A DNA stretch of 36,780 bases from Candidatus Lambdaproteobacteria bacterium RIFOXYD2_FULL_56_26 (lineage in GTDB: Bacteria > SAR324 > XYD2-FULL-50-16). The stretch spans positions 1-36,780 of the forward strand of contig MFNF01000019.1 in NCBI GenBank assembly GCA_001783715.1. The letters run 5' to 3'. Under the pieces are notes generated by a model that was not told where the DNA came from, searched no databases, and saw only the letters and a program-made list of their open reading frames with translations. The translations under genes and the position numbers were made by a program. The stretch's first letter is position 1. Every line of letters starts with the position of its first letter. Shown here one piece after another: positions 1 to 17,988 of the stretch.

Positions 1-64
1 AAGGAGTGCGAATTTCGCTATAACAATCGGAAGGTTGATGTTAACAAAATCCTTCTAAAACTGA

Positions 65-1849
65 TCAGAGAAAACCCGCTGTTCTAGTCTTGACCCTATT
101 TGAAATATTGTCCTCATTTATCGGCTTCGCATCGGACTTCCGGACCAACAGGGCATCATCGAAAAGCAGCAAATACAGCGCCAGACCTCCGATGCTATAT
201 ACATCGCTGGCTACGGACCATTGCTTGATTTCAGTGGCACGGGGTATGGAAAACCATTGATTGGGCGTTGCGTTCGGGTGTTTGACAACGATTTTACCAT
301 GGAAAAGTTGGGACACGTTTCGTGAGCAGATGTACACCAACTTGTCCAACCCCGTACTTTCCGACAGCTTGCCCACCTCCAAAATTTCGAACAAAAAATC
401 TCTGGCCAGCAAACGATCCCCTTTAAGCAGCTCAACATTAGTCGAAGGGGTAAATCCATCCAGGCCTTTAAGTGCCTTTTCGACGTTGCTCATTATACAC
501 TCTTCCTCACGGTTGATCAGCTTTTGCCGCCAACCCAGGTACACGACAATCACTTCCTCCTTCTCGTTGACAATCACTTCCTCCTTCTCGTTTTCTTTAT
601 TGTGATTCAAACGAGTTGTCTCCAGCACAATGGCTATGTCCGCATCTTCCTTCTCAATGGCATACCTTCGTTCGGGAGCGTAAAAAGGCGAAATTCTTTC
701 CCCATTGATGGCCGGTCCGGTTACAGTGTTTCCGCCACTCTCACGCGGATCAACCACACCGCCCATTCCGAACCCGGCATAATCGATCAGCTTGTAGGCC
801 TCCGGGGTATTTATTGCATTGGTCATGATGTTCGCTGGCCGAATGTCGGCATGGATGAACCCCCTCTTGTGGAGGCCATTTGCCCCCCGACAGATGGTTT
901 GAAGCAGAGTGAAGTAGTTCCCGTATTTCCAATCGGCAAAATTCGCCCTGGCATCACTAACAAGATACTGCAAAGTCATTTCTCCCCATTCGTACAAAAT
1001 CGAGGGTACCCCAAAATACCAGGAATTCTCGAAGTTCTGGGCATCGTGATCGGTACGTAATGGGGAAATTCTATACGCATCTTTGCCCTGGGCATTGGCC
1101 TGGCCATTGGATGGGATCGAAAATTCTAAAGTATCAAGCCAATGTCCCTGGTGCATCTTAGCGAGTATATCCTCGTAGTACTCGCCTTTGGACCTGTCAC
1201 CGTTGAGCCCAATAGGGCACGAAATTTCTTGCGAAAGCTGAAGAAATCTGGGTTTCGTCCCCTTTTTGAATTGGATCCCGATCAGGCTGTTGTTGATCCA
1301 CGAAACCAGGTCCTGCCTATGGTTCGCGGACACGGGTCTTGAAATCAAATCCATTTCGACGCAACGCACAATGTTTTCGGCTTGTCGGACTGCCGCAGCC
1401 TGACTTTTTTCCGTGACCAGTATATCCTTGATGTAGGCATTTTCCCTGCTGGTATCCGCAAAAAGTCTGGGGATTTTGAGTGCATATTTGTTCCCTCTAG
1501 TTACATGCGTTATTTGGATAACGATTCCCAGGGCTCCTTCGAAAACCGGCGCCAAACAGTATCCATTCTCATTTATGGCAAAATAATGGTCGCCTGAGAG
1601 CCAAATCATACCGTCACCTCTTTTGACCTCTACATTCCTACTCGCTTCTCCAGCGACCGCTTTGGGGGGTGAAGGCTTAGGTACATTTTTGCTTCTTCCC
1701 CCGGACCCTTTCCCCTTTTTCTGGGCACTTTCACTGCTTTGGGGTGAAGGCTTAGGTTCATTTTTGCTTCTTCCCCCGGACCCTTTCCCCTTTTTCTGGG
1801 CACTTTCACTGCTTTTGGGAGTCCCCTTTTTTTGATTCGGCATTTTCAA
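65..1849 (-). CDS. Protein kinase-like protein with tandem-repeat N terminus
   Basis: 594 aa. Residues 12-61 are two near-identical 25-residue Lys/Ser/Gly/Pro-rich repeats, likely disordered. A kinase fold follows: Lys in YALKIP (K125), catalytic loop HADIRPAN (D335, N340, with HAD replacing HRD), metal-binding D356 in LIDYAG (DYA replacing DFG), APE at 391-393, then an unusual insert of about 150 residues before the helix-F motif DVYSIG near 550. The insert contains a duplicated EKEEVIVN unit. The protein stops about 40 residues after DVYSIG, so the usual C-terminal lobe is short. It may be natural or truncated near the window edge. Key Lys/Asp/Asn residues are kept, so it could be active. 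The start overlaps the upstream cyclase-like gene by ATGA, so the two are co-translated. Base use is more A/T-rich than in the element at 3-14 kb. Target unknown. Confidence 0.75.
   Translation of the reverse strand: MKMPNQKKGTPKSSESAQKKGKGSGGRSKNEPKPSPQSSESAQKKGKGSGGRSKNVPKPSPPKAVAGEASRNVEVKRGDGMIWLSGDHYFAINENGYCLAPVFEGALGIVIQITHVTRGNKYALKIPRLFADTSRENAYIKDILVTEKSQAAAVRQAENIVRCVEMDLISRPVSANHRQDLVSWINNSLIGIQFKKGTKPRFLQLSQEISCPIGLNGDRSKGEYYEDILAKMHQGHWLDTLEFSIPSNGQANAQGKDAYRISPLRTDHDAQNFENSWYFGVPSILYEWGEMTLQYLVSDARANFADWKYGNYFTLLQTICRGANGLHKRGFIHADIRPANIMTNAINTPEAYKLIDYAGFGMGGVVDPRESGGNTVTGPAINGERISPFYAPERRYAIEKEDADIAIVLETTRLNHNKENEKEEVIVNEKEEVIVVYLGWRQKLINREEECIMSNVEKALKGLDGFTPSTNVELLKGDRLLARDFLFEILEVGKLSESTGLDKLVYICSRNVSQLFHGKIVVKHPNATPNQWFSIPRATEIKQWSVASDVYSIGGLALYLLLFDDALLVRKSDAKPINEDNISNRVKTRTAGFL
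545..592. repeat. 24-bp perfect tandem duplication in kinase gene
   Basis: Two adjacent identical 24-bp units (545-568 and 569-592) encode the duplicated NEKEEVIV segment in the kinase insert. The length keeps the frame. Perfect identity indicates a recent slippage or duplication event. Confidence 0.9.
1666..1815. repeat. 75-bp tandem duplication (2 copies) in kinase gene
   Basis: Copies at 1666-1740 and 1741-1815 differ by one base and encode the 25-residue repeat at the kinase N terminus. The period is a multiple of three, so copy number can change without breaking the frame. Confidence 0.92.
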
Positions 1850-2982
1850 CCTCTCCTATGAGTTGTATTGACTAGGATGACATCTTCATCATTCAAGTAA
1901 TGTTGATTCAACGTACGATTTGGATTCAACAACGGATGCTCCGATCCGGGCGAAAGTCTGAAAGCCAGGCCGTCCTGCGTATTCCGCACATAAACTTCAT
2001 TGTCCTTGAAACCATATCGCAACCCTTGCCTCATCAAATCGTCATAGCTTTTGGTGCCGCTTTCACCGTGATCGAAGGGAAAAAACGTTATTTTACCAGG
2101 CGATAACACAAATTTTTTCCTGTCCCCAGGATGCCCATTCGATTCAAAAGTACGTCGCACAAGTTCTGAAGGCTTAGAAATTTTTTCCAAAACCGGAATG
2201 AGATCGAGCTCATTTCCGTGCGGTTGATCAGGTTCGATGATAAATTGCGAATAGTCCGAATGGCTTTTGCTAATGAAGGCGGACAGGTAGGAAAATTTTG
2301 TATCGTTCGAAAGGCCTCTTAAAGCTGTTTGGCCTAAAGGTTCATCAGCTCGTAGAAAGGAAATGCTTGCAGTTAATCTTTTCCACTTACCCCCGCTGTA
2401 TAGATGCTTTTTTACCCTTACAGGATGAAATTCCAGTTTGTTAGATTTCTTCGGGTTCAGTTTTAAAATATCCTCAACCAAGCAAGTGGGCGCTTCGTAG
2501 GTAAAGGGGATCAGTCCTGTTTCAAAAGTGCTTTTTCCTTTTGGGTATAATTCCAGCGCTCTTCCGGCCAAATTGAGTCCGTGACCGTGCCAGAGGTGTA
2601 AACTCCTGTTCCGAGAGTTGGTTCCGATAGGAATTTTTTTTGCGGTCCCAAGGCTGAATGCGAGTTTTACGGGGTGCTGGATGCTTCCCAAGTTTCCTGC
2701 CAAATATTCACTGAACCGGCAGGCCGTATCCATTGCCGCAAGAAACGTCGAGGTCTTGTCTTTTGATGAGAGAGAGGGAGGAGTGAGATTCTTCAATTTT
2801 TCAGCAGGCAAGGCTACCCATATTGCATCTCCGGGAAACCAAAAATAGTCTGCATCGCTTCTGATTTTGAAGAACCTCTTGAACAGGTCCCATAGGGTTT
2901 TGACTTCATTCGGAACTAGGTAGCTACTGTCTCTCACGCTTGAGGCAAGATCCAATGCCACAATAAAGCGTTCATTTCCCAT
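1846..2982 (-). CDS. Putative class III nucleotidyl cyclase-like protein
   Basis: 378 aa. Residues 5-215 match the layout of a class III adenylate/guanylate cyclase domain: the opening strand FIVALDL with metal Asp D11, FPGDAIWV with the second metal Asp D52, a strand LAFSLGT (107-113), then GLNLAGR carrying the Asn (N137) and Arg (R141) that stabilise the transition state. All four core catalytic positions appear to be present, but the usual substrate-selecting Lys before GD is not obvious. The last 60 residues, with LNDEDVILV near the end, recall the tail of an FHA-like domain without its Arg/Ser/His signature; this is weak. It is the first gene of a two-gene unit with the kinase, overlapping by ATGA. 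GGGGGA lies just upstream of the ATG. Product nucleotide and role are unknown; a degenerate signalling fold is the alternative. Confidence 0.55.
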   Translation of the reverse strand: MGNERFIVALDLASSVRDSSYLVPNEVKTLWDLFKRFFKIRSDADYFWFPGDAIWVALPAEKLKNLTPPSLSSKDKTSTFLAAMDTACRFSEYLAGNLGSIQHPVKLAFSLGTAKKIPIGTNSRNRSLHLWHGHGLNLAGRALELYPKGKSTFETGLIPFTYEAPTCLVEDILKLNPKKSNKLEFHPVRVKKHLYSGGKWKRLTASISFLRADEPLGQTALRGLSNDTKFSYLSAFISKSHSDYSQFIIEPDQPHGNELDLIPVLEKISKPSELVRRTFESNGHPGDRKKFVLSPGKITFFPFDHGESGTKSYDDLMRQGLRYGFKDNEVYVRNTQDGLAFRLSPGSEHPLLNPNRTLNQHYLNDEDVILVNTTHRRG

Positions 2983-3107
2983 ATTCCCCCAATAAGTATT
3001 TTGAGCATTTTTGGCGAGAACCTATCAGGATATTTTTGGAATGTCCAGAATTTTCAAGGTATATGGATGGCAAGCTGATTCGGTTGGTTGCTACCGTTTG
3101 AGTCGGT

Positions 3108-3230
3108 TCAACCACCTATGCATAAGACCACCTTGCCGGTGCGGTTTTGGAACCGCCAGGGAGGATCGGCCAAAACCGTTTTGAACCGGCGGTCCCCGGC
3201 GAATTGGAGCAGTTCGTCCAATTCAGTCAT
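3108..3230 (-). pseudogene. MT-A70 family DNA adenine methyltransferase, 5' fragment
   Basis: A 40-codon frame whose first 33 residues match the N terminus of MT-A70 adenine methyltransferases, including the catalytic motif ADPPW followed by RFQNRTGKV. The family normally continues for about 150-200 residues with an APEH-type stretch. Here the match stops after GKV, seven unrelated residues follow, and then TGA. Its ATG overlaps the TGA of the upstream gene (ATGA), so it was the next gene of the element operon. I infer that a deletion or insertion near 3125-3135 removed the rest and joined the kinase/cyclase DNA. Confidence 0.75.
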
Positions 3231-3976
3231 GGCTTCAGCAATGAACTCCAGGCCCCTCCAAGTGAATAGTTCGAAACCAGTTCCTCTCTGATCTGTTCGA
3301 GCAGGCTGCTGCAGGCGGATTGCACCCCTTGCGGAACTTCCGCCGGTCCTACCGATTGAGGGAGAGTTTCGTTTGCGTATCGTTCAAGCAGTTGGAGAAG
3401 TATGCTCAGGTTCGTTTCCGTGAACTGTAACGTCAATCGAAAGAGGACATTTTGTTGGTCAAGCCTTTCCTCTCCCTGACGTTTGATCTGCCGGATCAGC
3501 TCAAACGTAGCCAGCTGTTGCCCCTTCCTGTCGAGGTAGGCCTCTTCTTCGGCTTCCGGATAGGGGAAAACGCCCTCGTCGGTCAACTGCCCGGATTCAC
3601 CGGGGTGGGCGTGGATGTCCAGGTAGTGCATCAAGATCCAAAACTCGGCGCTGGAAAGGGCAAAGGCAAAATCCGCCCTCGGGTTCGGCATGTAGCTCCT
3701 GGGACCATCCGGTAATTGCAACCTCTCTGCAGCGGCTACCTGCTCGGTCAGCCGCTGCAGTTCTGCCTCCTGAAAATGCAGAGCTTCTTCGAGCTCACGT
3801 TCTGAGTTAACGCTCAACACCCAATGCAGGGAAAACAAGGCTGTCAACCCCACAACCCCTACCTCACGGGCCGTTTCACCATCCCAAAGGCCCAACGATT
3901 CTCCGCCGAACCGCACCAGCGCAAAGAATCCAAGGATTCCGAAGAGTGTGCTAACAGAGATGCCGTACAGTTTCAT
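3227..3976 (-). CDS. Membrane-anchored coiled-coil protein, unknown function
   Basis: 249 aa. Two hydrophobic segments (about 9-24 and 39-56) are followed by a charged Glu/Gln-rich coiled coil (58-90) and a mostly helical soluble region. I do not recognise the family. Its start overlaps the end of the preceding 61-aa membrane protein by ATGA, and its stop overlaps the start of the methyltransferase remnant in the same way, so it belongs to the element operon. Two transmembrane helices plus a coiled coil would fit a bitopic or hairpin-anchored structural protein, but no function can be assigned. Confidence 0.7.
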   Translation of the reverse strand: MKLYGISVSTLFGILGFFALVRFGGESLGLWDGETAREVGVVGLTALFSLHWVLSVNSERELEEALHFQEAELQRLTEQVAAAERLQLPDGPRSYMPNPRADFAFALSSAEFWILMHYLDIHAHPGESGQLTDEGVFPYPEAEEEAYLDRKGQQLATFELIRQIKRQGEERLDQQNVLFRLTLQFTETNLSILLQLLERYANETLPQSVGPAEVPQGVQSACSSLLEQIREELVSNYSLGGAWSSLLKP

Positions 3977-5958: not shown

Positions 5959-6342
5959 CTAGCGCACCAGGCGCACACAGTTTTTCTGAACAATGTTGCG
6001 CCGACCGGTCCCGCCTCGATTAAAGCTCACGTACTTGGCTGCGGTTCCGGTTGGCATCACTTCCGTTTCCGAGGTCCAATAATGGTTGGCCTCGACACCA
6101 GGGAAAAATCTTAGGTCCAGCAAGGGGGCCTTCAGCTGGCTACGGTCCAAAAGCCCCATCAGTTCCTCCAGGGTCGGCAAACGCCAGTCGTTGTACCCCC
6201 CATGGTTAGACTCCTTGGCGTAGTCCACGGCAGATTGCCATTTCATGTATTTTGGTTCTCGCTGGTCCCAGGTCAAGCCAGTCGAAAGATCGGTCACGGT
6301 CTGGTTCCCGTTGTCCAAAAATCTCTTTTTTTGTGCTTCCAT
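5959..6342 (-). CDS. DUF1566 (Lcl_C-type) domain protein, copy 2
   Basis: 127 aa comprising little more than one DUF1566 domain: TVTDLSTGLTWDQ, then YNDWRLPTLEELMGLLD, HYWTSETE, KYVSFNRGG and a final CVRLVR. This domain has a C-type-lectin/FGE-like fold and is found at the C terminus of Legionella Lcl adhesin. No signal peptide is visible, so it is probably cytoplasmic or exported by another route. It is a tandem paralog of the upstream 6366-6782 protein, strongly conserved in the framework and divergent in the loops. DUF1566 proteins are among the targets diversified by some retroelements, but no reverse transcriptase is present here. Confidence 0.82.
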   Translation of the reverse strand: MEAQKKRFLDNGNQTVTDLSTGLTWDQREPKYMKWQSAVDYAKESNHGGYNDWRLPTLEELMGLLDRSQLKAPLLDLRFFPGVEANHYWTSETEVMPTGTAAKYVSFNRGGTGRRNIVQKNCVRLVR

Positions 6343-6365: not shown

Positions 6366-6782
6366 TTATTCCACCGGCTCCGAGCGGACGCAGCGGACCA
6401 GCGCATACTTGGTTTTGGTCCTTCTCCCCACCCTACCCTGGTCGAAACTGACGTACCAAGCGGTGGTCGACCCCGGTTTGGAGGTAGAGGTCCAGTAGCG
6501 GTTGGCTTCCCCTTGGGGGAAAAACCGCTTGTCGATCAGCGGGCCGGATTTCCAGGACAGGTCAATCAGCGTGGCCAACTCCTGGCGGGTTGGCAGCCGC
6601 CAATCCGTTGCCCCGGCACGGGAAAGCCCTTGGGCGTAGTCCATGGCTTGGTCCCAGGCCATCAGCCCCGCCTCGGTCCGGTCCCAGGTCAGTCCGGTGG
6701 TCACGTCGGTGACCGTTTGGTCCTGGTTGATCACGAAGCGGATTTTCTGCTTGTTGAAGTGGTCCAACAAACGTTCGTTCAT
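6366..6782 (-). CDS. DUF1566 (Lcl_C-type) domain protein, copy 1
   Basis: 138 aa, paralog of the gene just downstream. It has the family framework TVTDVTTGLTWDR, ATDWRLPTRQELATLID, RYWTSTSK, AWYVSFDQG and VRCVRS. A short helical N terminus (MNERLLDHFNKQK) replaces any signal peptide. Its start overlaps the stop of the replication-type protein by ATGA. The fold is a C-type-lectin-like ligand-binding scaffold; the ligand is unknown. The pair probably arose by tandem duplication within the element. Confidence 0.83.
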   Translation of the reverse strand: MNERLLDHFNKQKIRFVINQDQTVTDVTTGLTWDRTEAGLMAWDQAMDYAQGLSRAGATDWRLPTRQELATLIDLSWKSGPLIDKRFFPQGEANRYWTSTSKPGSTTAWYVSFDQGRVGRRTKTKYALVRCVRSEPVE

Positions 6783-10010: not shown

Positions 10011-10487
10011 CTATGGTGCGCACCACAGGTCCTTGTGCGCAGTATTTGGCTGATCCTTAGACTGCTCCGAGATACCCAGATGCAGTTCCAAAAGCGTTTT
10101 CCCCAAATCGGCTCCATCCAGTACAATCCGTCCCTTCCGGACTGACCGGCTTTTTCCGGGAGTCAACTCGAAAGGAGGAGCTTCCCCGAGGTCGGTGATC
10201 TCGATGAGGGAAGCGTTCCGGATTTTGTTCTCCATCAAATCGACCACCAGATTGCTCAAAAGCGTGGCGGCTTGGCACCGAGAGGGCCAGGAAGGCAACT
10301 GCACACCTGCAACCTGGATCAGGGCATCCTTTCCCCAAGTGTGATCCCCAGCAGGAAGACTGAACCGACAAACCCCGGAGGGACCGCACAATACCAATGA
10401 GGAAGGAGGAAGCTTGAGAGGCTGGTTGGCGGAAAAACCTGGGTTTGCCAGGAGGATTGCCAGGATTGCCAAAAAAGTCTTTTTCAT
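10011..10487 (-). CDS. Exported four-Cys SNase-like protein A
   Basis: 158 aa from ATG 10487. It has a signal peptide (MKKTFLAILAILLANPGFSA). The mature protein has the pattern shared by its element paralogs: C34-x5-C40-RF, strand, GVQLPSWPSRC (C71), helix, then GRIVLDGADLGKTLLELHLGI and a final LWC (C156). This layout mirrors bacterial thermonuclease-type proteins (GIDAPE..C..E, GR..VdG.dl...L...GlA, WC). The catalytic Arg and Glu in the GID-PE loop are replaced, so it is probably non-catalytic. Periplasmic or secreted, likely with two disulfides. Confidence 0.68.
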   Translation of the reverse strand: MKKTFLAILAILLANPGFSANQPLKLPPSSLVLCGPSGVCRFSLPAGDHTWGKDALIQVAGVQLPSWPSRCQAATLLSNLVVDLMENKIRNASLIEITDLGEAPPFELTPGKSRSVRKGRIVLDGADLGKTLLELHLGISEQSKDQPNTAHKDLWCAP

Positions 10488-10530
10488 CTGTTTCGCCTGT
10501 GTTGATGGTTTCAAGTTGCCTTGTTACTTT

Positions 10531-10547
10531 TTCCAGAGGAGTTTCTG
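10531..10547. repeat. 17-bp direct repeat, copy 2
   Basis: Identical to 9544-9560 and in the same orientation, 44 bp upstream of the ATG at 10487. The flanks are also loosely similar (T-rich before, CGGTTGG-type after), consistent with a conserved promoter or operator region or a duplicated junction. Confidence 0.8.
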
Positions 10548-10614
10548 CAGGTCGGTTGGGGGAAAATTGCACCCGGACCTAGACTCCAACGTGATGCGGT
10601 CGATTAAAATGGGG

Positions 10615-11343
10615 TTAGTTTCCATCGTGTGTTTCCCTTAAAAGCCCCAGCCGTTCCAGCAACTCGGGGCCGTAGATTTCCGAAAGGACCCGGCCCACCG
10701 CAACACTTCGCCGCTCTTCAGGTATGCCCAGGTTGTTTGTCAGTTTGGCGGCCACCTCGGCGGAGTCGGCCAAGGCGCTCAAAAACCTGGGGGCAGAGGA
10801 AAGCCCAACATCCTCAAACAGCAGGTCCAGTGCCCCCCGCCTGGGGCCGGGCTCGGTCGGGTCCTTGCCTTCCCAGGCTGTTTCCAATTCCTTGCGCCGC
10901 AAAATCCCTTCTCCCACCAGCCGCTCCAAGGTCGGGTCGGAATGGCCCAGTCGGGCAAAGGGGCGCTGCAAAGCTTGGCGTTCGCATTCGATAAAGTACC
11001 GTCGGACCTGCTTGCCCTTCTCGTTGCGTTCGACCATGGAGAGTTCCTTGGCCATGTCCAAGGTGAGTTGGTATTCTTTGCGGTTGTGACCACCTTTGCC
11101 CTTTTGCTCGCCAAATTTGGCGAGCAATCGAAAGTCCTGATTTTCCTGGAAGTCGTATTCCTTGATCCGGTCTTTGATCCAATTGCTGAAGTCTTTGCCG
11201 ACCCCCAAAAACTGGTGCAGTTCACGACCCTCCACCACCAAGACCGACCTCCCCTCCCACTGAGCCTCCCGAACCTCCACCGGCCCATGGATCACCCGCT
11301 CCAAGCGGAGTTCGGTCTTTTGAGTTGTCTTTTTGCCCTTCAT
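10615..11343 (-). CDS. AntA/AntB-type phage antirepressor
   Basis: 242 aa from ATG 11343, with AAAGGGC as SD; an upstream extension to 11451 is unlikely. Residues 35-110 carry the AntA signature: VEGRELHQFLGVGKDFSNWI, then RIKEYDFQENQDF and, after a short gap, NRKEYQLTLDMAKELSMVERNEKG, followed by the conserved VRRYFIECE. In phages this domain is the N-terminal part of antirepressors that inactivate or titrate the prophage repressor or act as DNA-binding switches. The C-terminal 120 residues are helical and unlike the usual KilA/ANT tails. It supports a phage-derived element under lysogeny-like control. Confidence 0.85.
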   Translation of the reverse strand: MKGKKTTQKTELRLERVIHGPVEVREAQWEGRSVLVVEGRELHQFLGVGKDFSNWIKDRIKEYDFQENQDFRLLAKFGEQKGKGGHNRKEYQLTLDMAKELSMVERNEKGKQVRRYFIECERQALQRPFARLGHSDPTLERLVGEGILRRKELETAWEGKDPTEPGPRRGALDLLFEDVGLSSAPRFLSALADSAEVAAKLTNNLGIPEERRSVAVGRVLSEIYGPELLERLGLLRETHDGN

Positions 11344-11404
11344 ATCATTGCCCTTTAGATGTACCGCACTTGGTTTTTTGGATTCTTTGGGAAAAGTGAG
11401 TAGC

Positions 11405-11866
11405 TCAATGCCTGCACCAGAACCTTTCATCCTGAGGTATGGTAAACCCACGGTCTAGGATACCCAACCCCAGATAGAACAACTCTTCCGCAACCTCGCG
11501 GCCGTCGATGGTGATGTCGGCCAAGTGGACCTGGATTTTGCCGACACGTACGGCGATAGGGACCGTCTTTGCTTCAATACCCGAGATCTCAATCCGTTTG
11601 GCCTTGGAAAGAAGTTCCCACAATCTGGACTCCAACTGCCTCGATAGGCTCATTTCAGCCCAGCACCAGCTATTCCCCTTTTTGGTGCCGATCCATCGCG
11701 GCAGGAGGATGCCCTTTGGCTTCAACCAAACTTCCTCTCCCTCGATCCGAAACTTGCAGGCACTTATGGAGCATTCGAGGAACTCGGCCTCGTCGGTTGA
11801 TTCGGGCAGCCCTAAGGCCGTGAAGGACCAAAGGAGCAGCAGGGGAAGCAGCAGTCTTTTTTTCAT
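11405..11866 (-). CDS. Exported four-Cys SNase-like protein B
   Basis: 153 aa from ATG 11866, with SD AGAGGAA. The signal peptide is MKKRLLLPLLLLWSFTALG. The mature protein has C32-x4-C37-KF, GILLPRW (the GID-PE loop equivalent), C68 in NSWC, then HLADITIDGREVAEELFYLGLGI and a final FWC (C151). Same four-Cys, thermonuclease-like layout as proteins A, C and D; the catalytic Arg/Glu are not conserved. It lies 30 bp downstream of the membrane fusion protein in the same operon. Confidence 0.68.
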   Translation of the reverse strand: MKKRLLLPLLLLWSFTALGLPESTDEAEFLECSISACKFRIEGEEVWLKPKGILLPRWIGTKKGNSWCWAEMSLSRQLESRLWELLSKAKRIEISGIEAKTVPIAVRVGKIQVHLADITIDGREVAEELFYLGLGILDRGFTIPQDERFWCRH

Positions 11867-11896
11867 CTTGTGTTCCTCTTTGAGGGGCAAAGGTCG

Positions 11897-13090
11897 CTAG
11901 TTGTTTTGTACGCACCAGGGATTGTCTGCAGGCAATCCTTCGGCGATACTTTCGTTGACCGCTAACTTGTTTGCGGCCAACAACTCGGAAAGGTCTTGGC
12001 CATTAACCCAAATCCTGGCCCGTCTTACTTTAATTGTATTTTTGAACAGACGGTTGAAGAAATCTTCTTCAGGATCGATTTCCGTCAGGAATATCTTCTT
12101 GAGTTTGCCGGGTTCTGCCCCGACTTGCTTGTTCAAGAACTCGTTTGAAAGGAGGTACAAAAGGTCCTCCGCCAGACAATGCCCCGGAAAGTCGGGCAAA
12201 AGGATCCCCTTGGGCAGGATCGTCAACTTTTTCCCCTCGACCTTGAATCCGCAAAATCTGGTGGCGCATCCTAGCGGGATAGCCTCCAACCGTTGTTCCG
12301 TCTTGGTTTGGGGTGATTGTGCGGCAACCGGTTTGGCCCCCAAGGTCGCCAAGGCAAACAAGCCCAAGACCAGAACACTCGACTTGGGCTTGAACCGTCC
12401 CCGTTCATCTCGGACCCAAAGACCCTGGCCGTCCTGGGAACTTTCCCCTGGTCGCACCAGCGGGGCCTGGGGCTGAGTCAGTGAGCGGTCCACCAGCCGC
12501 AAGGGAGCCCGGCGGCCTAGGCTCCAAGCGAGCCACAAGGCGGCCAACTGGAGGCCCAGGCGGTTGAGCCAAAGCAAAGCAATTTCGAGAGGATCTTTGA
12601 TGCGAGGGGAATTGGCCTGGGTTCGTTGGCCCAAGTGGTCGATCAGTCGGTTTTCGGCCTCGATCCGGGCAAGCGAGGCCTTGGCGGCATTGGTCTTTTG
12701 ACCGGCGGCCAGGAAATACCGGCTCCCTGAGCCCTGGCCTTCAACGGCCCGTTCCAAGGCTCGTTGGTAGTCTTGGGCTCGGGCCTCCGCCTGAGCGACT
12801 TCCAGGGCCGGAGCGGCCAGACGGTACCCCGCCCCGGTTAAACCGGCGGTGGTGAGGCAGAGGACCGTGGCCCAGCCAAAAAAACGGGCTCCGGTTCCCG
12901 TTTCGCCGGAGAGCCGGGACACCAAAGCGGCGGTCCCGAATTCCAGCGCCAGGGCCACGGCCCAACCTCGCCAAGCCTGGGGGTAAAACCCGGCAAAGTA
13001 CTCTGCCGTATCTGCCACCAGTACCCCAAGAATCAAGCCTAAGGCAAGATACCCCCCAAGGATTCGCCAAACTCTGGAGTTCTCAGACAT
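11897..13090 (-). CDS. Membrane protein fused to a four-Cys SNase-like domain (C)
   Basis: 397 aa. The N-terminal half has hydrophobic segments at about 9-28, 43-60 and 70-90, an amphipathic Ala/Glu-rich helical region (95-155), and a segment at 170-192 (LLWLNRLGLQLAALWLAWSLGRR). After a linker, residues 238-258 (VLVLGLFALATLGAKPVAAQ) resemble an internal signal or anchor. The last 120 residues are the four-Cys domain: C275-x4-C280, GILLPDFPGHC (C305), RRARIWVNGQDLSELL, NPWC near the end. The membrane half matches the topology and several residues of the protein at 16309-17988. The SNase-like domain probably faces the periplasm. Start overlaps the zinc-ribbon gene by 8 bp. Confidence 0.7.
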   Translation of the reverse strand: MSENSRVWRILGGYLALGLILGVLVADTAEYFAGFYPQAWRGWAVALALEFGTAALVSRLSGETGTGARFFGWATVLCLTTAGLTGAGYRLAAPALEVAQAEARAQDYQRALERAVEGQGSGSRYFLAAGQKTNAAKASLARIEAENRLIDHLGQRTQANSPRIKDPLEIALLWLNRLGLQLAALWLAWSLGRRAPLRLVDRSLTQPQAPLVRPGESSQDGQGLWVRDERGRFKPKSSVLVLGLFALATLGAKPVAAQSPQTKTEQRLEAIPLGCATRFCGFKVEGKKLTILPKGILLPDFPGHCLAEDLLYLLSNEFLNKQVGAEPGKLKKIFLTEIDPEEDFFNRLFKNTIKVRRARIWVNGQDLSELLAANKLAVNESIAEGLPADNPWCVQNN

Positions 13091-13301
13091 GGCCCTCCCC
13101 GAGTTTGGGGACCGGGGGCAATCCGCTGGGATCCGGGAACAGCTGGCCCGAACACCGGGGACAAAGCCCCGACCAAGCGGGCTGGGGGCCGCAATTGGGG
13201 CAGATCAAGGGGGGCTCCAGGAAGGTCAACTGCTCAAAGCGGCTTCCCTTCCGTGGCCGACCCCGCTGGGGCTGCTCCCTGGTGAACCCTTTTCGGCTCA
13301 T
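13083..13301 (-). CDS. Small zinc-ribbon protein
   Basis: 72 aa from ATG 13301, chosen because it overlaps the preceding stop (ATGA) and shares the duplicated leader and start. It begins MSRKGFTREQPQ, identical to the start of the neighbouring protein D, then has a basic linker and a zinc ribbon: ICPNCG (CxxC) and LCPRCSG (CxxC). It is probably cytoplasmic. Zinc ribbons of this size bind nucleic acid or bridge proteins; the partner is unknown. Confidence 0.65.
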   Translation of the reverse strand: MSRKGFTREQPQRGRPRKGSRFEQLTFLEPPLICPNCGPQPAWSGLCPRCSGQLFPDPSGLPPVPKLGEGHV

Positions 13302-13311
13302 CGGGCCTCCT
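13266..13311. repeat. 46-bp direct repeat, copy 1 (start of zinc-ribbon gene)
   Basis: Perfectly identical to 13811-13856. It spans the leader with SD (AGGAGG-like), the ATG and about 12 codons on the minus strand, so two unrelated proteins share the N terminus MSRKGFTREQPQ. It indicates a recent duplication or recombination that reused a translation start. Confidence 0.93.
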
Positions 13312-13846
13312 TTTGCAAAGGGCCGCACCATACACCACCAGCTTGCTTTTCCATAGCGGCGGCAAATTCGCTTGAGACTGCAAACCCAGCATCGGAAAGA
13401 GTTTTCGCAAGGTCCTTGCCGTCAATCAAAACTCTGGCGGGCCGGGCCAAGACTTCCAGGTTGAATAGGGGGTAACGAAAAACCTTTTCTTCGCCGATCT
13501 CCGACAATTCAATCGACTTGGGAGCTTCCAACAACGCTCTTAAGAACCGATCCGTAAAAAGATACAACCGGCGCTCAGCAACGCAGGAACCGCCAATATC
13601 CGCCAGCTCAACCCCTCGCAAGACAACATGCAACTCTTCTTCTCCTACGAGAAACCGACAGGTCCGATTCGCACAAATTCCCTTTGATGCCTTAATCGTC
13701 CCCTTGGCGGCAATAGCGTTGGAACCGGACCAAGGCAAAAGCGCCAAGGCCAGAAACAGGCCCAGCCCCCCTTTAAGTTTAAAGGTCCGGTTCTCTTTGG
13801 GAGCAGACTTCTGGGGCTGCTCCCTGGTGAACCCTTTTCGGCTCAT
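13298..13846 (-). CDS. Membrane-anchored four-Cys SNase-like protein D
   Basis: 182 aa. A basic cytoplasmic N terminus (MSRKGFTREQPQ, shared with the zinc-ribbon protein) precedes a hydrophobic segment (27-46) that would anchor or export the protein. The domain has C58-x4-C63-RFLVG, VVLRGVELADIGGSC (C88), the helix AERRLYLF, then ARVLIDGKDLAKTLSDAGFAV and VWC (C174). It is the paralog closest to true thermonucleases in layout. Even so, the first catalytic Arg is Val and the Glu is Asp, so activity is doubtful. It is coupled by ATGA to both neighbours. Confidence 0.7.
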   Translation of the reverse strand: MSRKGFTREQPQKSAPKENRTFKLKGGLGLFLALALLPWSGSNAIAAKGTIKASKGICANRTCRFLVGEEELHVVLRGVELADIGGSCVAERRLYLFTDRFLRALLEAPKSIELSEIGEEKVFRYPLFNLEVLARPARVLIDGKDLAKTLSDAGFAVSSEFAAAMEKQAGGVWCGPLQKEAR

Positions 13847-13856
13847 CGGGCCTCCT
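13811..13856. repeat. 46-bp direct repeat, copy 2 (start of protein D gene)
   Basis: Identical to 13266-13311, offset 545 bp. Covers leader, SD, ATG and first 12 codons of the 13298-13846 gene. Confidence 0.93.
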
Positions 13857-14235
13857 GTTGAAAGGGGCTACACCAAGGGCCACCCTTTTTTTGGGCCAGA
13901 TACTTGACCATGTTGTCTTCCTTGGCAGCAAAGCGCCCTACTTCAAACCGGCAAACTTGACTGAAGCAATAGCCATGTTCGCCGAAGACGGCATCAACCC
14001 CTGGGTTTGCTTCCAATATCCGGGGAGCCAGCAGCAAGGCCAAGAACAGAACGGACAAAACCAGAGGCCTCGTCAATCTGCGCTTTTGAAGGGTAGTCGA
14101 ACGCCTAGCCTTTACTCCGTCTGATTTAGCGGCAGGGTTTGGCTCCGGGTCAAGGGGGAGTTCTTCAAACTCCACCACGACCCCAAAGCCTTTGCCGGTC
14201 CGATTACGATTTTTGGGGATTTTGCGCCGGGTCAT
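13843..14235 (-). CDS. Membrane-anchored truncated four-Cys family protein E
   Basis: 130 aa. A long basic N terminus (residues 1-56, MTRRKIPKNRNR) precedes one transmembrane segment (57-74). The family start follows, C90-x4-C95-RFEVG, then only about 25 residues before GGPWC (C122) and SPFQQEAR. The central strands and third Cys of the family are missing, so it looks like an internally deleted paralog that kept the N- and C-terminal Cys motifs. The end is nearly the same as in protein D (WCGPLQKEAR). ATGA overlaps on both sides. Confidence 0.62.
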   Translation of the reverse strand: MTRRKIPKNRNRTGKGFGVVVEFEELPLDPEPNPAAKSDGVKARRSTTLQKRRLTRPLVLSVLFLALLLAPRILEANPGVDAVFGEHGYCFSQVCRFEVGRFAAKEDNMVKYLAQKKGGPWCSPFQQEAR

Positions 14236-14432: not shown

Positions 14433-14818
14433 GCCTACCTCTTACACAAGAGAGGTTAGGGCACGGTCACCACCAAATTCCAAGGGCCTAAAAACAGAAA
14501 GGCTCTAAGAATTCGGCGGTGTAACAGCACCATCACGCCGGGTTACGAAGCCGACGCTGCCAAATCCTTAGAGCCTATCTCCACCATCCTCAAACACGAC
14601 CGGGGTAGTAGCCCTTCGAAGATCTCTGTTAAAGCCTTCAAAATCGCTCGGGTGGTGGATCAAAACCAAAGGGTTTCGATGTGGGCTCAATTATGCATGA
14701 GCTTCCACCCCTGTCAACCCCTCCGCCAGGAGGATGGCAATAATTGGTAATAATTGAAAAGCTGGGATGTCACATCTCCAGCCACTTATTACCATTGGCT
14801 TTAGAGCCAAAATGCGTA
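14433..14818. other. Gene-free region with nested inverted repeats at the element/tRNA junction
   Basis: No credible gene. It contains a perfect 10-bp inverted repeat, AGGCTCTAAG (14500-14509) with CTTAGAGCCT (14567-14576), enclosing a second GTAAC/GTTAC and CGGC/GCCG pair. It also holds an almost continuous 50-bp dyad at 14745-14794 and a short hairpin at 14795-14810. It lies between the start of the element operon and the 3' end of tRNA-Asp, so it may hold the attachment region, operators or a replication/transfer origin of the element. Confidence 0.6.
14745..14794. repeat. 50-bp near-palindrome beside tRNA-Asp
   Basis: Outer arms TGGTAATAA (14745-14753) and TTATTACCA (14786-14794) are perfect. 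Inner arms 14761-14770 and 14772-14782 pair with a one-base bulge. The length and near-continuity suggest a protein-binding site or cruciform rather than a normal terminator. Confidence 0.75.
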
Positions 14819-14895
14819 TGGCGGGGTTGACGGGGCTCGAACCCGCGGCCTCCAGCGTGACAGGCTGGCGTTATAACCAACTTAACTACAACCCC
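14819..14895 (-). tRNA. tRNA-Asp (GTC)
   Basis: 77 nt with encoded CCA. The acceptor stem GGGGTTG pairs with CAACCCC, discriminator G. Anticodon arm CCAGC-CTGTCAC-GCTGG reads GTC, and the T arm has GCGGG-TTCGAGC-CCCGT. It is second in a two-tRNA transcript behind tRNA-Val. Its 3' end faces the element, the usual arrangement for tRNA-targeted integration. Confidence 0.96.
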
Positions 14896-16308: not shown

Positions 16309-17988
16309 ATGGCGAGTTTCAAAAAAGGCCTGTTCATTTTGGGGTTATTGGTGGTCAGCCTGACCGCTTCGGCCTTTATGGTGCTGGAGGCGGGGTATTA
16401 TTACCAATCGCTGTATCCCCAGTCCTCCTTCGGCTACATGGGCTACTTGGCCGCCACCTTGAACGAAGCCTTCATGGCCATCATGGCCGGGGTCTGGCTG
16501 CCCGGAAAGGTCCGGGGCAAGGGGCACCCGGTCAACTTCTTGTTTCGTTTCCTGCTGATTTTGTTGTTCTTTACGACCGTCGGAGGGGCGAGCTTCAACG
16601 CCATTTCCGAGCATTTGTCGGTATTGGAGTCCCAGGCGAACAACCGTGCTGTTGTGGAGATCCTCAAAAGCCAAGTGGAAGACCACGAAAAATCCCTGGC
16701 GACCTTCTCCGAACAACGGCAGAAGATGAATTCCGCTTTGACCGTACGCAACCAACTGGCGACCAAACAAAGGCTGGTTGAGGCGATGGAACAACAAAAG
16801 GCGGTCACCGGTCTTTGGATGCAGGTGATTTTTTTGGTGGTGCTCCGGGTTGCGGTGCAGCTGGCGAACCTCAGCTGTGTTTGGCTGGTGGGCTGGGTCT
16901 GGCGCAGAAAAGAAACGGTGTCGCAGCAGGCCAGGGAAGCCGGAGTTTTGGTGGAGACCAAGAGCAGTGTTCCTGGCCGCACGGCACCCACGTTGCTGGA
17001 CCATTTGCTCCAAGATAACCCCGAGAAGGCGTTACCGGCCCCTGAGGCCCGACGAGGCCCTGCTTGGCAACCCAAAACCCCACCTGAAAGGACGTTTACC
17101 CCCTACTCTGACCGAGCTGCTGGAGAGACAACCGGGACGACAGAGAAAAATGCGCTGCAGGCCCAAAGCCCGAGCCTTTCCCCGGCTGCTCCGGCGCTAA
17201 AATTGCCGGAAGAAGCGGTGGTGTCGGCAGTGGTTTCCCCCCCGGAGCAGGCTCCCACCAAGGACCTGAGCCGTTCGGAAGCGGCTGGGTCCGCCCTGGC
17301 GGGTATCTTTTCTGCACCCTTGCCCCAAAGGGCCAAGGTGCTCCCGGAGCCTGAAGTTGCCTTACCGGTCGGCTCCGAGACAAGCAATCTGTCCCCAAAA
17401 CAGTTGGCCCCGGTTCCGGCACCTGAACCGGCGGCGCAAACCGTCTTGCCCGTTGTCTTCAAGGACCAAACCCCGCCTTTGGAGTCAAAAGACCCCCCCC
17501 AAGTTGTCACGGCTCCAGTCGAGGTTCCAGGCCAAATGGTCACTCCGGAAGTGGAGCCCGCTTTAAAAATGGTGCAGCCAGAAGCACAAGTCTGCCAACC
17601 CCCGGCAGAGCCAATAGCCGCTCCGGCGGTTGCCCCCGAGGTCCGCCCACCGGTCCAGCCACTGCCCCCCCGTGCCGGGAAGGCCTTGCCTTTTCCCCAG
17701 AAAGCCAAAGCCCCCCAGGCCCCAGCAGCGGAAGCGGTGGTGGAGGTCCAAGACTTTGAACAACAAGAGCTCAAGCGACTGCGGACCCGGATTGTCCGGC
17801 TTGCCAACCAGCGGAATCCGGGTGTCAGTTTGTCAGCCTTTTGTGCCGCCTTAGGGGAAAGCCCGGTTGAGCTGCGGGAAATCGCCAACTTCCAGGCCGA
17901 ACTTTCTCCCCAACTGGCTGAGCGGCTTGAAGAGATAGTTGGAAAGATTGAGCGGCTCCACCAAAGCCAATGGGCAGCAAACGGGTAG
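16309..17988 (+). CDS. Membrane/coiled-coil protein with long Pro/Ala-rich linker
   Basis: 559 aa; SD GGAGG 7 bp before the ATG. Hydrophobic segments at about 7-27, 43-63 and 76-96 are followed by a coiled coil (105-165) and a fourth segment (168-195, ending VGWVWRRKE). Residues 200-480 are a low-complexity Pro/Ala/Glu/Val linker. The last 75 residues form a compact helical domain (LSAFCAALGESPVELREIANF) that may be an HTH-like or protein-binding module. The membrane half closely resembles the N-terminal half of the element protein at 11897-13090 (YxxxFYPQ/LYPQ after helix 1; R-x5-QLA-x-L in helix 4). Function unknown; the linker could span envelope or cytoplasm to a partner. Confidence 0.75.
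   Translation: MASFKKGLFILGLLVVSLTASAFMVLEAGYYYQSLYPQSSFGYMGYLAATLNEAFMAIMAGVWLPGKVRGKGHPVNFLFRFLLILLFFTTVGGASFNAISEHLSVLESQANNRAVVEILKSQVEDHEKSLATFSEQRQKMNSALTVRNQLATKQRLVEAMEQQKAVTGLWMQVIFLVVLRVAVQLANLSCVWLVGWVWRRKETVSQQAREAGVLVETKSSVPGRTAPTLLDHLLQDNPEKALPAPEARRGPAWQPKTPPERTFTPYSDRAAGETTGTTEKNALQAQSPSLSPAAPALKLPEEAVVSAVVSPPEQAPTKDLSRSEAAGSALAGIFSAPLPQRAKVLPEPEVALPVGSETSNLSPKQLAPVPAPEPAAQTVLPVVFKDQTPPLESKDPPQVVTAPVEVPGQMVTPEVEPALKMVQPEAQVCQPPAEPIAAPAVAPEVRPPVQPLPPRAGKALPFPQKAKAPQAPAAEAVVEVQDFEQQELKRLRTRIVRLANQRNPGVSLSAFCAALGESPVELREIANFQAELSPQLAERLEEIVGKIERLHQSQWAANG

Follow-up and report, generated by a model that had tools for sequence, protein, structure and literature searches.

The stretch of DNA analysed here (the window, 36,780 nucleotides) is the whole of contig MFNF01000019.1 (C19) in the 3.08-Mb draft genome of Candidatus Lambdaproteobacteria bacterium RIFOXYD2_FULL_56_26. 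Beside a tRNA-Asp gene it contains a probable mobile element with a minus-strand cluster of genes, P1–P5, which a first-pass annotation had described as five exported four-cysteine proteins resembling staphylococcal nuclease (SNase). Reading away from the tRNA gene, the order is P5, P4, a small zinc-ribbon-like gene and P3, successive genes overlapping by a few bases, followed by P2, an AntA antirepressor gene and P1 (Table 1). The gene coordinates of that annotation proved correct, with ATG starts chosen, and Shine-Dalgarno-like stretches precede most starts in the cluster.

Table 1 Features of the P1–P5 cluster and its surroundings, in window positions, listed away from the tRNA gene (TM, transmembrane segment; AF2, AlphaFold2; ORF, open reading frame).
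Feature	Position	Strand	Basis or remark
tRNA-Asp	14819..14895	-	Element lies on its 3' side; possible integration site
Sigma-70-like promoter match (TTGACA-16-CATAAT) upstream of P5	14690..14717	-	Weak; site count equals chance expectation
P5, apparent remnant: TM, C-x4-C-RF and WC, no barrel	13843..14235	-	23-residue spacing; 74-nt repeat
Direct repeat copy 2 (3' end of P5 and start of P4)	13811..13884	.	88% identical to copy 1
P4, N-terminally anchored or exported putative SNase-like pseudo-nuclease, four Cys	13298..13846	-	Profile match 13319-13708; AF2 model
Direct repeat copy 1 (3' end of P4 and start of zinc-ribbon-like gene)	13266..13339	.	74 nt
Small zinc-ribbon-like protein	13083..13301	-	Start inside a copy of the 74-nt repeat
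P3, four-TM protein, further TM and SNase-like domain (domain 11906-12310)	11897..13090	-	Profile and single-sequence searches
Four-TM half of P3	12512..13090	-	hmmsearch; stand-alone relatives in prophages
P2, secreted putative SNase-like pseudo-nuclease, signal peptide, four Cys	11405..11866	-	Profile match 11408-11806
AntA-type antirepressor gene, between P2 and P1	10615..11343	-	Pfam AntA, 3e-27
P1, secreted putative SNase-like pseudo-nuclease, signal peptide, four Cys	10011..10487	-	ORF; profile match 10014-10430; AF2 model

Four of the genes, P1–P4, carry a full motif made up of C-x4/5-C-[RKG]F, G[IV]xL[PA], a third Cys, [DN]Gx[DE][LV] and WC, a combination that occurred in none of 20,000 shuffles of P3. 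Their pairwise identity is 22–32%, and a search of the genome with P3 recovered P4 at an E value of 1.7e-13 and P2 at 8.6e-4. In P5 the C-x4-C-RF and WC elements are 23 residues apart, as against 107–112 in P1–P4, and the protein has no G(I/V)xL(P/A) loop, third Cys or DG. The best reading of P5 is a copy with an internal deletion, because its 3' end sits in a 74-nt repeat that recurs where P4 ends and the next gene begins. This repeat shows a tandem duplication of gene ends; the zinc-ribbon-like protein and P4 also have their first 12 residues in common. The earlier count of five genes sharing the family features is thus better given as four and a remnant, P5 keeping the ends of the motif and no barrel.

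Direct comparison with Pfam, PHROG, NCBIfam and PADLOC models gave nothing significant for P1–P5. A profile of the P1–P4 domains was searched over 192 genomes at an E value of 0.01 and over 52 genomes of the same class at 1e-5. At 0.01 it found SNases in 12 genomes of the class besides the source genome, one of them a weak match with an internal stop, and there was one further, marginal match in a distant genome. At the stricter threshold, genuine SNases were recovered from 11 other genomes (E 4.6e-12 to 3.5e-7). The class SNases matched in this way are mostly secreted or membrane-anchored by sequence, and the profile also matches SNases on viral contigs. In the closest relatives the pattern is CYDGDTC-x-F ... 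R-x-x-G-(I/V)-DTPE-x-x-G-(K/R)-C ... K(Y/F)xR ... DG ... WC, and because they carry CYDGDTC at this position, the C-x4/5-C motif of the window proteins corresponds to the DGDT loop without its acids. Single-protein searches for further pseudo-domain relatives found none for P3 in plasmids, for P4 in phages or for P1–P4 in IMG/VR. A sequence search of the PDB with the P1–P4 profile returned a weak cytidylate kinase match over 25 residues (E 0.005), which was judged to be chance.

The AF2 model of P4, for which the alignment consisted of the four window paralogues alone and included no active enzyme, had a predicted local distance difference test score (pLDDT) of 85.6 and a predicted template modelling score (pTM) of 0.80. 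All 50 of the 50 PDB matches listed for it were staphylococcal nuclease (best E 6.4e-6, template modelling score about 0.6). The P1 model gave the same result (pLDDT 89.0, 50 of 50 matches listed), its alignment including active relatives, which makes it less independent than the P4 model. Both are predicted to form a barrel of the oligonucleotide/oligosaccharide-binding (OB) type with SNase topology, scoring about 0.5–0.6 against staphylococcal nuclease structures. The first-pass annotation had tied its assignment to such a barrel, and both predicted structures contain one. Taken with the profile matches to real SNases, the predicted fold makes membership of P1–P4 in the SNase superfamily well supported.

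The alignment indicates that much of the active site, in which D21, D40 and T41 are calcium ligands and R35, E43 and R87 are catalytic, has been lost. The substitutions are D21G, R35Q, D40Q, T41L, E43S and R87E in P1; D21S, R35K, D40L, T41L and E43R in P2; D21R, R35L, D40L, T41L and E43D in P3; and D21R, R35V, D40E, T41L and E43D in P4, with R87 kept in P2, P3 and P4. D40E in P4 and E43D in P3 and P4 are conservative, and P4 has lost D21, R35 and T41. The initial statement that the catalytic Arg and Glu are altered in each protein therefore holds for R35 and E43 but not for R87, and it left out the loss of the metal ligands. P1–P4 all retain the four Cys and two structural Gly. Relatives in the alignment without the first Cys pair miss both members together, a joint loss that fits disulfide pairing of Cys 1 with 2 and 3 with 4. 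None of the 76 distinct relatives that span every site has a change at D21, R35, D40, E43 or R87, a figure that is partly a product of retrieval, the viral scan having used GIDTPE-type patterns. Loss of both catalytic and metal residues supports pseudo-nuclease status well, and we call P1–P4 putative exported pseudo-nucleases on this basis.

P1–P4 grouped together in 84% of bootstrap trees, on very long branches, and it is possible that long-branch attraction accounts for the grouping. They also have in common T41L and an insert near the R87 segment, which argue for one inactive ancestor and suggest that activity was lost once, before duplication. The one other dead secreted SNase in the less biased same-class set (locus L016, G047:C370, 530–835) reads CYNGNVC/NGNV and IETPR, and an intact copy is present on C347 of the same genome; this loss of activity looks independent of that in P1–P4.

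Signal peptides and transmembrane segments, assigned by eye from the sequence, bear out the earlier description of differing modes of export. P1 and P2 have ordinary signal peptides, whereas P4 and P5 have a basic leader followed by one hydrophobic stretch (an N-terminal transmembrane segment or signal anchor), and P3 consists of four transmembrane segments and a coiled-coil-like middle, then a fifth transmembrane segment and the SNase-like domain. Display towards the periplasm, as originally proposed, is supported by these features, and P1–P4 would lie either on the periplasmic side of the inner membrane or within the periplasm.

In hmmsearch the four-TM half of P3 matched loci L031, L035, L037 and L036 and a gene at window 16309–17988 (E 1e-14 to 1e-87), all of these except L031 having been rows of the profile itself; an independent single-sequence search with P3 finds four-TM relatives at E 3.1e-15 to 6.8e-7. 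Relatives that stand alone are found in the early part of three prophages: immediately upstream of a Mu-type transposase gene in G005, following an ORF6N gene in G002 and, in G003, in a tailed prophage that also has Rha. The window gene at 16309–17988 is a longer, chromosomal version beside CheY, an arrangement seen again in G005 (L036:8077–9495). The mobile copies, P3 and the prophage genes, look like offshoots of an unnamed chromosomal family.

Active relatives of P1–P4 are also encoded on mobile elements. In the source genome an intact membrane-anchored SNase (L030, G000:C30, 12251–12850) lies between TraV and TraC in an F-type conjugation operon, which by Pfam reads TraE, TrbI/TraB-type, TraV, SNase, TraC, TraU, TraF, TraH and TraG, and the order TraV-like/SNase/TraC-like recurs in G005. 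An intact SNase of G006 is encoded on the opposite strand beside an amidase gene in a tailed prophage, and another lies downstream of a helix-turn-helix (HTH)/S24 repressor and a DUF2511 gene on a viral contig (L073). SNase genes are present in 2046 plasmid records. On Rhizobium pLPU83a, a thermonuclease gene adjoins traG and is induced with the tra genes (PMC13055273); beyond this case, nothing was found in the literature on SNases in exclusion.

Beyond P1, the element in the window continues with a DUF2786/phrog_421 gene, phage-type replication-initiation genes, two Lcl_C (DUF1566-type) genes, which adjoin each other (5959–6342 and 6366–6782), and a ParA-like gene. This gene content, together with AntA and the place beside tRNA-Asp, makes a mobile element probable, as the first-pass annotation had it, although the window showed no integrase and searches turned up no attachment (att) repeat. 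There are likewise no conjugation or virion genes in the window. Two candidate att sites were rejected: a second copy of the tRNA-Asp 3' end on C31 belongs to a complete second tRNA-Asp, and a 16-mer matched on C45, in what looks like coding sequence, was taken as chance. The type IV secretion system (T4SS) genes of the source genome sit on other contigs, C30 and C7. A copy of the window's AntA, 53–68% identical, is found near TraG and an integrase gene on C7, a hint, not proof, that the element belongs with the T4SS contigs. Joining the window to these contigs through contig ends fails, as its left end is a repeat common to many contigs. This repeat of about 100 bases (window 1–100), present at many other contig ends, is probably an insertion sequence cutting the kinase-like gene at 65–1849. 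The kinase-like gene, which matches PADLOC kinase models weakly, lies with two unnamed neighbours at the left end of the element (65–3976); the three could form a module of cargo or defence genes. An imperfect 27-nt inverted repeat with arms 31 nt apart (14496–14580), located between the cluster and tRNA-Asp, may be a control or recombination site.

P1–P4 resemble staphylococcal nuclease homologues (PF00565, 'thermonuclease family protein'), to which they are linked through intermediate same-class SNases, in their predicted OB/SNase fold, order of elements and secretion. Unlike these enzymes, they have no Pfam match, have lost D21, R35, D40, T41 and E43, and occur as four paralogues in one cluster, one of them fused to a multi-TM protein. 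Thermonucleases of mobile elements (the C30 T4SS SNase; pLPU83a_0136, PMC13055273; the Sulfurimonas phage SNW-1 gene) share their setting and, in the closest cases, the four-Cys subfamily (CYDGDTC...GKC...WC), whose marks, a Cys pair around the DGDT loop, a Cys after the TPE loop and a C-terminal WC, are all recognisable in P1–P4. Those with a sequence compared (the pLPU83a protein left out) keep their catalytic residues and occur one per locus, unlike P1–P4. In Tudor-SN/SND1, inactive SN-like domains are used as non-catalytic binding modules, but these are eukaryotic, intracellular tandem domains and are not encoded by mobile elements.

We propose that the ancestor was a secreted, disulfide-bonded SNase of the kind carried by conjugative elements and prophages, and that a copy lost its metal site and general base. 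Duplication of the dead copy inside the element and divergence of the products would have followed, with one of them joined to a four-TM phage or element membrane protein. The exported copies would serve as non-catalytic binding modules that block the entry of competing DNA, either by attaching to some component of a phage or conjugation apparatus as it arrives or by competing with the active SNase that such an apparatus contains. As a whole, we give this explanation a probability of roughly 0.35. Open frames and Shine-Dalgarno-like sequences persist despite the low identity of the paralogues, which speaks for this explanation. P1–P4 have probably been kept for a binding role on the periplasmic side, and the prophage and T4SS company of their relatives suggests interference with DNA entry by competitors. 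T4 Spackle (PMC7677548) and P22 SieA (PMC10883804) are small phage proteins of the periplasm or inner membrane that keep out a later invader; P1–P4 may work alike, a likeness of function only, with no sequence relation claimed. The function we tentatively prefer is one in which protein contacts interfere with DNA that is entering or with a rival's transfer machine. An envelope role in exclusion or competition, as suggested in the first-pass annotation, fits the context and is, like selection for the fold and a protein partner, something that we infer.

Several points weigh against this proposal. Exclusion is argued from the company of relatives and not from the P1–P4 locus, and any link of the window to C30 and C7 is tentative. 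The plasmid SNase genes that were opened are not next to annotated transfer genes. Among the other loci searched, which are short, none had more than one SNase-like gene, and an amplified set was found only in the source genome among the 52 class genomes, making conserved linkage unusable as evidence. It seems rather unlikely that P1–P4 go as far as forming a multi-specificity exclusion locus, a kind not described, in which diversified non-catalytic envelope proteins would recognise different parts of competing DNA-entry machines.

If the SNase barrel kept its nucleic-acid groove, P1–P4 could instead be exported DNA-binding proteins that hold DNA in the periplasm, whether it is entering or leaving, for its transfer or uptake. 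The predicted fold and the R87 kept in P2–P4 are compatible with this, but R35 and the metal site are lost and the charge of the domains is unfavourable. Their isoelectric points (pI) are 5.8–7.9 and their net charges −2 to +1, compared with a pI of 8.5–9.6 in most active same-class relatives, T4SS and prophage ones included, and net charges of +4 to +7 in the active relatives linked to T4SSs and prophages. Such near-neutral domains make a protein partner likelier than simple DNA binding, but the point is not decisive, since some active relatives are also neutral or acidic; three same-class relatives have a pI of 4.6–7.0, one of them the dead G047 copy. The binding of incoming DNA raised in the first-pass annotation is weakened by these charges, and we consider it doubtful. 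Equally doubtful is an accessory or regulatory role as subunits of a conjugation machine belonging to the element itself, in mixed complexes with the active membrane-anchored T4SS SNase. The same genome does encode an active relative between TraV and TraC, P4 has its closest relative in the T4SS-type SNase of G005 (34% identity), and a relative of the window's AntA is found near TraG and an integrase on C7. The tree, however, does not place P1–P4 with T4SS SNases, the cluster does not adjoin tra genes, and no pseudo copies were found in the G005 genome, which has an active T4SS-linked SNase.

That P1–P4 are decaying, functionless duplicates, amplified and then left to drift, is improbable. The internal deletion of P5 and the recombination evident from the 74-nt repeat would fit a decaying cluster, but P1–P4 are still open and retain export signals, Shine-Dalgarno-like sequences and four Cys at 22–32% identity, whereas a random 130-codon frame stays open with a probability of about 0.002; the P1 and P4 models are also confident. 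Inactive paralogues that act on their active kin have a general precedent, and with an active exported SNase encoded on C30 of the same genome, P1–P4 might act in the periplasm as inhibitors of, or immunity proteins against, a secreted SNase or DNase toxin. The window has no linked toxin gene, however, and no known system was recognised; we regard this role as very unlikely.

Plasmids and phages widely carry SNase genes as accessory genes, and little is known of what these do there. Dead, exported and diversified copies in one element would indicate that a binding role is separable from cutting, and the P1–P4 set may offer a direct way to ask what SNase-like proteins touch at the envelope. If these copies do exclude competitors, they would represent a new use of the SNase fold in mobile-element conflicts.

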